A DNA stretch of 64,000 bases from Serripes groenlandicus (Eukaryota > Mollusca > Bivalvia > Cardiida > Cardiidae), in contig JASEVX010000003.1 in NCBI GenBank assembly GCA_031761405.1, forward strand, positions 113,835,831 through 113,899,830, in the 5' to 3' direction. Made by a program: the position numbers and the translations under genes. Positions 14,801 through 20,800 of the stretch are shown piece after piece. The stretch's first letter is position 1; each line of letters starts with the position of its first letter. The notes below the pieces were generated by a model that worked only from the letters and a program-made list of their open reading frames with translations, was not told the origin of the DNA and did no database searches.

Positions 14801-17800
14801 CACATATAACAAGTCTGCAGCAGACGACTTTGAAAACATTGAGGAAAATATATAGAAAATCCATATAATTGAAAGAACAATTATTGAAAAAGTTGAAAAC
14901 ATTGTGGTTAAAGGAGAAATTGCTCATGATGAGCAATATCTTCTTTTGCCACTACGTTTTAAAATGTTGTCTGCTGCAGAGGCGTCAGAAAGTGCCTTTA
15001 TGTGGGAAAGGGTTAAGATTTTCCCCGCTCACGATCTACTCACCTGAGTGTCCCGCAGGAAGCGGGTGTAAACAAATTATGATTACAAATGGATATAAAT
15101 TCATGAGCATAATTGTGATTACATATAAAATCCTCTACAGTTGATTTAAATGAGACGTGGTTGATAAAATGTGATTCATTATCTGTTATTTTTCACATAG
15201 ACTTAGTGTGAAAAGATAGAGAAACCATTTAGTATCACACAACTGTAACTATATGACTAGTCTGAGCTGATGGGAAAAAAAACCTTATGTTTGTCCCTAC
15301 AAGTCCCAATTTAAAACATGACCCAGATTATTGTAACAAAAAAATGCTATAGATTTTGTATGATTTCATGGATAATAAAATGTGTCCACTCAAGTGTTCT
15401 AAAGGGTTTTCTAAAATGTGAATGTGCCCTATTTTTCTACCGAAAGCGACCCAGTTTTGAAAATGACTGAGATTTGAAGGAGATGAGTGCTCTAATCTTT
15501 TTTGAAGATTGGATGTAAAAACTTAAAAGTGACGTTTAGAGAATAGAGAGCTACCTAACAAGATATTTCCAAAAAAATATATCCAATAAAATGACCTAGT
15601 TTTTTACCCCAACAGTTTCCAACTTGGAGATTTATTTATTTATTTATTTGGGTTTTATGCCGCTTTTAACATTATTTCAGTTATATCACGGCAACAGTTC
15701 ACTTATTCATGATCCCTGAGTTAACAAACCAGTACAAGGCTAGAAAATGTGCCTGGCCCAAGGGCACTCCACTATGACCGAGGTGCCGCGACTGGGATCG
15801 AACCCCGGATACCCTGTTTCGAAATCCCCCTGACGCTAACCACTCGACCACAGCGGATTCCTAACTTGGAGATTTGATTCAGATGTCAGTACTGGTGAAT
15901 ATTAGAAAAGATATGATGACAAATTAACTGAATATTCTGATACACTTTCATGACCATTGCATAAAAATGTAGCCTCTAAAGATATCACAAATTGATTTTT
16001 ATAATTTGACCTGATGGACTAGTTTTCACTTGAGATTGTTCAATAACAATTACCTTACACTTAAGACCCCAAATATAATCCCAAGAAGCTGTCTGCAATA
16101 ATTAGCTACCTATCTGTGGAATTGGATTAAAATAAATTTAAGTTATTGACCGGAAATCACTGTTTGACGCCTGTGATATCACCAGCAAACCAGTTATTAA
16201 AAAAATATGGTTTAAAAAGTCACATAAATATAGCATGCAGTTTGTGATATATTTAACCCTTTCCCACCTATAGACACATTCTGACTCATCTGCAGCAGTT
16301 TAAGAAAAAATTACCATAATAAGCAATTTCCCCTTTTTGCCACAATGTTTTATACCATTTTTTTTTTTATTAATCAAACTTTCATATATAGAGATTTTTA
16401 CATTTTTTCCTTAATGTTTTCAGTCGCCTGCTGCATATTTGCTGTAGGTGGGAAAGGGTTAAACATGCAGTATACTTTTCACTGATCCCTGGTTTACTAC
16501 CCAGTACTAGGCTAGGGAATGCGACTAGTCGAAGGGCACTCCACCGCTCTGAGCAGGAATCTACCTAGGACAATAGGTCTCAATTCCCCTTTAACTATAA
16601 TTCAGCTACTTATTAATATTTAAGTAAAAGCAGAAAAGGATCATCATCTCAAAGACTACTGGCACATTTCATTTGCATAACTGACTTTGAAATTAGACTA
16701 CTAAGTAAAAGACAAAAATAACCATAGCATGGGTGAACTAGTCTTCTATACTAACGAGCAAAGAATAAAAGAACTACTTAAGTCTTAACCCTTTGATTGC
16801 TGGAATGTAATTTTTGGAACCTGTACCAGCAGTAGAGGTACAGAGCCAGGCCAGTCAGCCCATGTGTGCCATTTGACCTTTAAACTGTTGGCTGCTCAAC
16901 TTATTTTAATCTTGATATGCCTAAAATTAGCTGTGGATTCTTCCGAATTCAGAGCAGGACTAGTCCATTTTGAAAATTCAGCATTGAAAGGGTTAAAGTT
17001 CAAGAACTGTTTCTAAGATCAGAAGTTCCAAGTTTCAAACACAAGTAAAAAAAAAAAGTGAAGCTAGGTAGAGTGCCCTCAGACCTCAAGAGTGTGCAGC
17101 GAAAGCTGGGTTCACAGAGCATTTAGATAAGGAGGAACTGTCAGTATATTTATAACCCTTTCCCTCAACTGTGATCATTGAGACATCTGCAGCAGATAAC
17201 ATTTGAAAACAATGTTGGGTTTCGTCTTCCACATTTACAAATACATGTGTAAAATAGTTTTTAGCCAATATTATTCTTTGAAGCTTTTCACTTTTGAGGA
17301 GTTCTAAAGTATTGTATTGGGGATTTTTGAAATGGCCAGGAACACAAATCAGGTCATCTGGTAGATGTAATATAACTGAAATATTACTGAAAACAGTGTT
17401 AATCCTTTACCACATATAGATGCTTTCTGACATGTGCGTCTGCAGCAGACAACGTTTGAAAACATTGCAGCCAAAGGACAACATTTTATCATGAGCAACT
17501 TCTCCATTTGTGAAAATGTTTTTCAGATATTTTCCACATTTTTGCAGATTTGTTCTATGTGGGAAAGGTTTCAACTCTATCAATCAACAATTACAGTGTT
17601 CATAATACTAACTTTAATTTTTGCATTTTGCAGTTTTTCCCTGTGTACTTACTTAAATTTCAAACATTCAATTCCCCAATTTTGTCAAAGAACCATTTAT
17701 TTTAATCCCTGGTTACAGCTCTCCTTATCCAAGCTCTATGATACATACCTTGATGTATAAAATGGGAATTGTTTGTTTGGATTTACTGTAATGACGAGCA

Positions 17801-20800
17801 ACCCTATATAAATTCTCAGGTACGAAATCCAGAACTAGATTGAGGAAAACTTCATCCTTCTGAAATTTTGGTAAAAATAAAATTGAAACGAAAAGATACA
17901 CACATTTAAAACAAGGTCTCAGTTCCTACAGCCTTTCAGACACTAGAAAAGCTGAATTAAGAGAATGGAAAACAACTGCTTTTTTGTATAAAAACTCTGC
18001 CAAATCTTTACTAAACAATAATTTTGTTGTTTAAGATCAAGTAATTTTTGATCAATATTCATCTACTTTATCAGAAGTTAGATTTGATAGTTGCATGTTT
18101 TCCATTCTCATTAAGCTGAGACCCTGTTATACATATCACTAGTTACAGGTCATACCTTGATGAAGATCATCGGTATGGTTTGTTTGGATTTACTATAGTG
18201 TCTGGCAACTCTGTATACTGTTTCTGGAACATACTCTAACACCAGGTTCAGAAATACTTCATCTTTCTATAAAAACAACAAGTCAGTAACAGACAAAAGG
18301 TTCAGTAAGTTAAATGTTTGTATATTATAATGTCACCCCTTTTGAAAGGGCCAGCCATTTCTGGTTTAAGACTATGGGACACCTTAGTATATTTACTTCC
18401 CGAATCCTGGCCTTTTTGCCAGGTACCAGATAGTCATACATTCAGTACCACTATTAACCTTGCTGACAGTTCACCAACCGGCTAAATCAGAGAGAACCCC
18501 ACTGTCACCATTGAGATTCAAACCTTTAACCTCCTGCTACTGAAGCAGGTGCATTAATCACTAGGCAATCAGGATCAGTCAGTAAGTGTGCCATCACTGC
18601 TCAACTTTGATAACAAACATTTGTGAAATGACAATATGTCATTCATTGTAATTTTTCACCAGTGCTGGCAACTTGGTTGGTATGCTTTCCACTTTGCACT
18701 TAGTATAAATCATTGTTTGAATATCCACTCTGCCAACAATGTTCTTTATTAAATTTGAAGTAATTCCTCCCATAGTTATTTATTTTCATTTTATAAGCTT
18801 TAAGGTGCTGAACTCCAGATATAGATCAAAATTTTGAAATGTTGAAACTTCTGCAAATATTGCTATTATTGACAACAAAGTAAGTAAGAATTAGTTCAAT
18901 TTTGGAAGAAAATGTTGAAAAACTGGCAATTGAAAGTCATGGAAATGTTTAAAGTTTGGCTTACTTGGTATGTCTATCGAGAAAAAATGATGCATAAGCG
19001 ATCAATATTTAGATTTTGTTGGTACTGCAAATTTTATCCCAGTATTACGATTCTAACATTTTCATGACAAGTTTTGAACAGTTTTAAAAACTTTGATTAT
19101 AATATCTAATATTTTCATGACAAGTTTTGAACAGTTTTAAAAACTTTGATTATAATATCTAATATTTTCTGGAGTTCAGCACCCTAACCCTTTCCAATAT
19201 GTAGATCTGCTTTCAGTCATCTCTGAAGCAGATAATTTTTGAAAACATTGTGGCATAAGGAGGAATTTCTCCTTTTGCCACAATGTTGACAATTCTATTC
19301 AATAACTGACCTTCATAGTTTATAGAGATGTTCTAAAAAAACTTCTATATTTTATGTGAATATTTTTGAAGTTGTCTGCTGCAAATTTGTTGTATATGGG
19401 AAATGGTTTTGTTCTTTAACCCTTTCCCACATAGAGCAAATCTGCAGCAGACGACTTTGAAAACTTAATGGTACTACAAGAAAACATCACTATAAATGAA
19501 ATTATAATGCTTGAAAACTTTGTGGAAAAAGGATAAATTGCTCGTTTTGAGTGATTTCTTCTTTTGTCACAATGTTATCAAACGCCGTCTGCTGCAGATG
19601 CATGGGAAAGGGTTAAGGACAGAATAGATTGATGGGGGGGGTTTAACTCCATTTTCAAAAATTATTCAGTCATATCACTCACGGCGGCCAGTTTACCTTC
19701 TCATATGTTTCCTGGTTTTCTCACACCAGTACTCCACACTCCAAGCAACTGGCTGCTTTTCCACATAGACTGTAAGCCCATTGGTGAAAGACGAATGAAG
19801 CTTGTCACATTGACTTTTGTAAACGTCGGAAAGAATGTTTGGCCGAGCTAGGGTTTGAACACACAACCCCTGGAGTGACAGCCTGCTATATATTAAGAAA
19901 GAAATCAGTCACCTTAAAAGAAGACAAGTAAACCATTTGACTGATGCAACCTTTTGGTTGCTGATGCAAGTCAGAAACACATGGGGAAAAGTGAGTTTGC
20001 CAGCGTAATATGTTTGAAAGTGTTAAACATTTTTAACCTTCCAGTACAAAATTTGTTGACAAAGCTAATATCAAAATAATGAAACGAGAAAGAATAAAAC
20101 AAGAAAATTATTTTTGCGAAAAACAACAGACGTTCCTGGATTCTGACAAGATTCAGATGTATGGCAATTATGAGGTTTTCTGATCTCCTTTTTAACACAC
20201 AATAAATCTGCAGTAGATGACTTTGAAAATATATCTTAGTAAAATCTCTGTAAATATTGAGTTGAGTTGAAATCTGTGGAAAAAGAGGAAACTGTTCTTT
20301 ATGCAGAGGATTCTGCACACATCTGCAACAGAAGGTCATGAAAAATAAACACACCAGAGGGCCAAGATGGCCCTTAATCGATCACCTAAGTGATAGTATA
20401 GGAGCAAATTTTTAACTGCAAATGTCGGAGAAAATTTGATCAATACAGGGAATAAAACCGATAGAAGCGGATATTGTAAAATAAACAGCTTACGAGTAAA
20501 GGACATTTTGTAATAAAGCATTAAATCTTTGAACAAAGATGTGGTTTGAAGATAAAAGTTCATTTTACTTTTAACTGATGTCGCCTTGTGGCTATCTTTT
20601 CAACCAATAAAATGGCATAAACAAATTATGTGAAGGGTCGCTAAAGGAACATTTCTGTGAAATTATATTAGAATCCAGACGAAACGAATTTTAAAGGTTT
20701 GCCATCCCCCCTTTTGTAAGCAGCAGCAGCCAAAGTTCTTCATATAATTTAAATCTTTGTAAAATTTGAAAGAGGACCACCAAAGGATCATTCGATTGAA

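Follow-up and report, generated by a model that had tools for sequence, protein, structure and literature searches.

The question raised by a 64,000-nucleotide (nt) stretch of the clam Serripes groenlandicus (GenBank assembly GCA_031761405.1, contig JASEVX010000003.1, positions 113,835,831 to 113,899,830 of the forward strand; hereafter the window) is whether a single gene for the protein kinase GSK-3 can provide two versions of the hinge of its adenosine triphosphate (ATP) pocket. A GSK-3 gene lies on the minus strand of the window, where its nine coding exon positions extend from 23889 down to 5652; the fourth of them, which encodes the hinge, is occupied by two tandem exons, termed 4A and 4B. 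An initial annotation, made from the DNA letters, had proposed two constrained and phase-matched exons over the hinge of one GSK-3 gene, and this proposal was borne out. With a probability of roughly 0.7, we read the pair as an old duplication of exon 4 in which both copies are used as alternatives and 4B gives an active kinase marked by a shared Asn138-Leu139 (human numbering). The parts of the gene are as follows:

Exon 1, 23805..23889, minus strand: start codon and RPRTTSF motif
Exon 2, 22385..22575, minus strand: GNGSFG loop and AIKK lysine
Exon 3, 20924..21007, minus strand
Exon 4A, 18156..18266, minus strand: hinge exon of the ancestral type, 37 residues
Intron between 4A and 4B, 17860..18155, minus strand: 296 nt, GT-AG
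Exon 4B, 17749..17859, minus strand: second hinge exon, 37 residues
Exon 5, 12301..12431, minus strand
Exon 6, 11222..11328, minus strand
Exon 7, 8875..9068, minus strand
Exon 8, 7583..7769, minus strand
Exon 9, 5652..5827, minus strand: C-terminus and stop

Both 4A and 4B are 111 nt long, open, in phase 0 at either end and bounded by AG and GT. The sequence upstream of 4A ends in ...GTTTTTATAG and that upstream of 4B in ...AAAATTTCAG, while 4A is followed by GTATGACC and 4B by GTATGTAT; the introns of the gene are GT-AG. The assembled product comprises 421 amino acids with one copy of either 4A or 4B. Exon 4 starts at residue 121 of this protein and, therefore, the four hinge differences between the copies fall on residues 131, 132, 136 and 137. 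Based on its alignment with positions 123-159 of the GSK3-beta chain 1i09_A, these correspond to human residues 133, 134, 138 and 139. Reading of the minus strand, codon comparison and gene assembly agree with the initial annotation in coordinates, residue numbering and the 421-residue product, and the minus-strand reading likewise gave two open hinge exons with consensus splice sites and phase 0. GSK3-beta chains in the PDB match the B form over residues 1-418 (E = 8.8e-218), and the kinase domain PF00069 is found in the window protein with E = 6.3e-64. The N-terminal RPRTTSF motif and the activation-loop motif of GSK-3 are both present in the 421-residue translation.

Directly upstream of exon 5, on the minus strand (12467-12432), 36 nt nearly repeat the first part of that exon and have an AG of their own. 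Use of this acceptor would add 12 residues in frame.

The genome (1.76 gigabases in 1,739 contigs) matched the exon 4A protein and the exon 4B DNA only at the two known places each. A search with the whole protein, in which 99 of 248 candidates were scored, recovered the exons of this locus, and the other kinase-like places among the 83 matches listed reached at most 54% identity; no second GSK-3 gene was found among them. The gene containing 4A and 4B is thus the sole GSK-3 gene detected in the genome. Within the window, tblastn at the limits used detected neither a third copy of exon 4 nor a second copy of any other GSK-3 exon. Because exon 4 matches only two places, the genome also shows no spliced retrocopy that would reveal which exon had been used, and a search of a plasmid collection gave no match.

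How far have the two copies diverged? They share 79 of 111 bases and 30 of 37 residues, and the seven residues at which they differ occupy exon positions 11, 12, 16, 17, 33, 34 and 35. Among the 32 differing bases, 25 are third positions; the copies have different third bases at 9 of the 11 fourfold sites and at 9 of the 17 sites that are two- or threefold. We simulated 32 random substitutions under neutrality in 20,000 runs and counted the residue changes: the mean was 19.7, a stop occurred in 66% of the runs, and seven or fewer changes were seen in none of them (0/20,000). When 16 changes were assigned to each copy, 0 of 20,000 runs from either starting copy stayed free of stops with at most four residue changes; measured from the mollusc consensus, 4A carries three residue changes and 4B carries four. 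The earlier claim that the residues are held while synonymous sites drift agrees with these counts (7/37 residues; 25/32 changes at third bases). The comparison of nonsynonymous (dN) and synonymous (dS) divergence, suggested along with it, gave a dN of 0.11 and no finite dS by NG86. The two units can be aligned over 118 nt, the exon plus a few bases, and otherwise share short weak matches in the introns. Since similarity ends near the exon edges, the duplication is old, and both copies look constrained.

Codons 25-30 contain a 17-nt block that is identical in 4A and 4B despite the silent divergence elsewhere (P = 0.012 by codon shuffling, for a block chosen after the fact). This block may reflect local conversion or an exonic (splicing) signal.

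To place the two hinges among those of other GSK-3 proteins, we used three protein searches, one with the B form (best 120 of 7,844 rows) and two with exon 4 only (best 120 of 252 and best 120 of 282 rows). Together they list 202 different proteins with 203 exon copies, none of which was dropped. Since each row stands for a whole 90% cluster, one form (A or B) of a species may be concealed behind the other. Compared with the mollusc exon-4 consensus, 4A departs only at exon positions 33-35, which are variable among the 203 copies, and retains the hinge E-Y-V-P-E-T-V; 4B departs only at positions 11, 12, 16 and 17. Position 11 (residue 131) is Glu in 177 copies and Asp in 26, and position 12 (residue 132) is Tyr in 142, Phe in 60 and Cys in one. 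Position 16 (human 138) is Thr in 197 copies, Asn in five and Met in one, and position 17 (human 139) is Val in 193, Ile in five, Leu in four and Met in one. The five Asn residues belong to three clams with a B-type exon, to P0121 (Asn-Met), which sits on a long branch, and to P0194 of the mite Halotydeus destructor (Asn-Leu); in the latter two, Asn at human 138 probably represents independent changes. The B copies of the three clams share Asn-Leu with 4B of the window and have Glu131, followed by Tyr in Mactra and Ruditapes and Cys in Dreissena at residue 132, so that Asp-Phe is peculiar to the lineage of the window. Judged from these alignments, Asn136-Leu137 (human 138/139) is the shared and unusual mark of 4B and Asp131-Phe132 an addition of this lineage. 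Val135, Pro136, Glu137, Tyr140 and Arg141 (human numbering) are retained in 4B. The initial annotation had drawn an alternative nucleotide pocket from all four hinge differences: their positions stand, but the pocket does not follow from all four, as Glu/Asp131 and Tyr/Phe132 are common and only Asn136-Leu137 is shared.

A second hinge exon in the GSK3 genes of other molluscs, which had been named as a check, was encountered in three clams. Among the matches listed, B-type exons occur in Mactra antiquata, Ruditapes philippinarum and Dreissena polymorpha, which belong to the Mactridae, Veneridae and Dreissenidae, all of them Imparidentia. The M. antiquata model of 459 amino acids contains A and then B in one protein, in the same order as in the window. 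Isoform X2 of R. philippinarum and isoform X2 of D. polymorpha are B-only models of 420 and 422 amino acids. In a tree of 35 sequences, calculated with exon 4 left out, the window gene grouped with the three B-type clams, Mya and seven further sequences (support 97/90). The window gene branches first within this group and the inner order is weakly supported, while Mactra and Ruditapes group at 99/95.

The label "isoform X2" was rejected as a sign of the exon pair, as X2 and X3 of Physella share the same exon 4. In the land snail Bradybaena similaris, two GSK-3 proteins (P0024 and P0037) derive from two contigs of different length and differ in their exon-4 sequences, and therefore probably represent two genes.

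What would the second hinge do to the kinase? The catalytic motifs are encoded in the other exons, outside exon 4, and are common to both forms. Thr138 corresponds to Asp86 of CDK2 and to Asn114 of JNK1, close to the ribose, and the JNK pattern at the hinge is Asn-Leu; 4B would therefore move GSK-3 towards a common kinase pattern without breaking it. The B-only protein of Ruditapes, modelled with AlphaFold, adopts the GSK3-beta fold (Foldseek E = 8.9e-46, TM scores 0.73/0.84). In the model of the two-copy Mactra protein, residues 141-188 are below a confidence (pLDDT) of 50, as are some other stretches; both models were built on 25-26 sequences. In three papers, ligands of the adenine site are described as bonded to the backbone of Asp133 and Val135; Thr138 is placed in a zone that is mostly open to solvent, beside a conserved water (PMC7248956, PMC4092126, PMC8998611). 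As these bonds involve the backbone, side-chain swaps need not create a different pocket. We expect both forms to be active kinases that differ modestly in how they bind nucleotides or inhibitors, the outcome being a tuned kinase and no new pocket.

Based on the anatomy of the locus, the splice sites, the constraint, the single locus and the B-type exon in three clams, we prefer alternative use of an old exon pair. Exon 4, encoding the last strand of the N-lobe sheet, the hinge and helix D, would have been duplicated in tandem in heterodont clams, and both coding exons would have been kept and used as alternatives. 4A would have kept the ancestral hinge. 4B would provide a second, active kinase in which Thr138-Val139 at the mouth of the ATP pocket is replaced by Asn138-Leu139, Asp133-Phe134 having been added in the lineage of the window. 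The predicted effect is a modest shift in affinity for ATP or inhibitors or in hinge dynamics, giving neither a new ligand nor a dead kinase. The locus shows what characterizes tandem duplicated alternative exons: adjacent homologous exons of equal length and phase with their own splice sites, coding constraint on both copies (0/20,000 neutral runs), and conservation of the pair, with both copies in the Mactra model and the B type in the Ruditapes and Dreissena models. We infer that 4A and 4B are probably spliced either/or in a regulated manner, with an effect on the kinase.

Several observations weigh against this alternative use. The phase allows 4A and 4B to reside in one messenger RNA, and the Mactra model indeed contains both in series. 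The B-type exons of the other clams come from gene models, not proven transcripts, and exon position 27 is Asn in their B copies and Ser in that of the window. No A form of Ruditapes or Dreissena is among the matches listed, where it may be hidden because the rows represent 90% clusters; A may thus be hidden by clustering or replaced by B in these clams. For Mya arenaria, the sister of Dreissena in the tree, the listed matches include an A-type model only, which is without five residues after exon 4. Mean pLDDT is middling for both structure models (63.0 for Mactra, 69.4 for Ruditapes), and they therefore give weak support for either/or use. Competing RNA pairing was sought between the intron portions up to 500 nt from the pair and showed no excess (z = -0.22, -0.52 and +1.2 for three region pairs, 60 shuffles each, in a single species); since the duplexes extended over nearly the whole regions, this test is a weak one. 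Given the permissive frame, the lack of a pairing signal and the GT-AG introns, exclusivity, if real, needs another cause, for example, exon-specific factors.

Four other explanations of the pair have to be considered. The 4B form could have weak GSK-3 activity or none and serve as a brake or decoy, and the rarity of Asn138 and Leu139 (Asn in five and Leu in four of the 203 copies listed) in one of the most conserved kinases would fit such a role. All catalytic motifs are common to both forms, however, Val135, Pro136, Glu137, Tyr140 and Arg141 are kept in B, and Asn-Leu is also present in GSK-3 of the mite Halotydeus (P0194), so we regard a brake or decoy as unlikely. Alternatively, both exons could be included, resulting in a 458-residue GSK-3 with a doubled hinge segment. 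For two phase-0 copies only 296 nt apart the frame is no obstacle, and the 459-residue Mactra model is exactly such a protein. The B-only models of Ruditapes (420 amino acids) and Dreissena (422 amino acids) argue against joint inclusion, and a doubled hinge would be expected to break the kinase fold, in line with the Mactra structure model, which leaves the extra stretch unplaced; joint inclusion therefore seems quite improbable.

We consider it very unlikely that 4B is a spare, included in transcripts seldom if at all and staying similar to 4A through occasional conversion. The 17-nt identical block at codons 25-30 exceeds what codon shuffling yields (the post hoc P of 0.012), and within it the window B has Ser like 4A where the B copies of other clams have Asn, as conversion would predict. 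Yet silent sites outside the block are far apart, which conversion would have erased, and B is intact in four species, carries its own signature and is present in full-length models. Hardly any weight falls on the idea that 4B replaced 4A in some clams, which would make the pair a transient state instead of a retained switch. Such a replacement would account for the exclusively B-type models of Ruditapes and Dreissena and the exclusively A-type model of Mya among the matches listed, but Mactra, which groups with Ruditapes at 99/95, has both copies, and clustering at 90% can hide an A form.

Apart from the GSK-3 gene, the plus strand of the window contains a Ty3-type retrotransposon (58245-62615) with long open frames for gag (58245-58946) and pol (58950-62615). 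Its domains comprise protease, reverse transcriptase, RNase H and integrase. A 242-codon open frame at 48702-49427, also on the plus strand, has no Pfam match.

Is such an exon pair without precedent? Tandem alternative exons are well known, and the GSK-3 hinge pair is a new instance of them. One study describes, in FYN, mutually exclusive exons that arose by tandem duplication and contain the ATP site, and, in CAMK2D, duplicated alternative exons with residues adjoining that site (PMC9741552). The FYN pair (FynB/FynT) resembles that of GSK-3 in that a protein kinase has tandem exons covering its ATP site; FYN, in contrast, is a tyrosine kinase whose pair encodes the SH2-kinase linker and N-lobe with conserved ATP-contact residues, whereas the GSK-3 pair encodes the hinge (PMC9741552). 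Exons 6a/6e of coq-2, described in another report for helminths, annelids and molluscs, are also alternative exons of equal length that remodel an enzyme core, but coq-2 encodes a prenyltransferase, its switch alters the quinone made, and its use was demonstrated by RNA sequencing (PMC7434440). Exon 10 of the oyster alternative oxidase is a further bivalve duplication with one copy altered around functional sites; these are terminal exons of demonstrated expression, the B form being increased in air exposure (PMC5589949). GSK-3 itself is alternatively spliced in pig and Drosophila, but the forms described are a pig variant with 13 extra residues inserted between exons 8 and 9 (PMC3391277) and an alternative C-terminus of Drosophila shaggy (PMC6025963), neither of which swaps the hinge. 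Among the papers listed in a limited search on GSK-3 splicing, bivalves and kinase tandem exons, which took in few subscription papers, none describes a second hinge exon for GSK-3, so the earlier statement that no description of the pair is known still stands; the terms GSK3 and GSK are absent from PMC5740500, PMC9741552 and PMC9803972.

The vertebrate paralogs are also comparable, since GSK3-alpha has Glu196 where GSK3-beta has Asp133 at the hinge, as in 4A and 4B of the window. A review gives this as the only alpha/beta difference in the catalytic domain and a possible cause of paralog-selective inhibition (PMC7765659). These are two genes, however, not exons; the aligned beta chain keeps Thr-Val at 138/139, and the Glu/Asp difference is not found in the B copies of the other clams. 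We tentatively put forward, as a possible but less than even reading, that two splice-chosen GSK-3 hinges have been kept since the ancestor of Venerida, Myida and the lineage of the window, differ in affinity for nucleotide or inhibitors and are the counterpart of the vertebrate alpha/beta pair. GSK-3 is a highly conserved and much-studied drug target whose hinge is rarely varied, with Thr138 in 197 of the 203 copies listed. If selection in clams does maintain a natural second hinge, it would be a test of the role of human position 138, and a single gene would achieve by splicing what vertebrates partly do with two genes.

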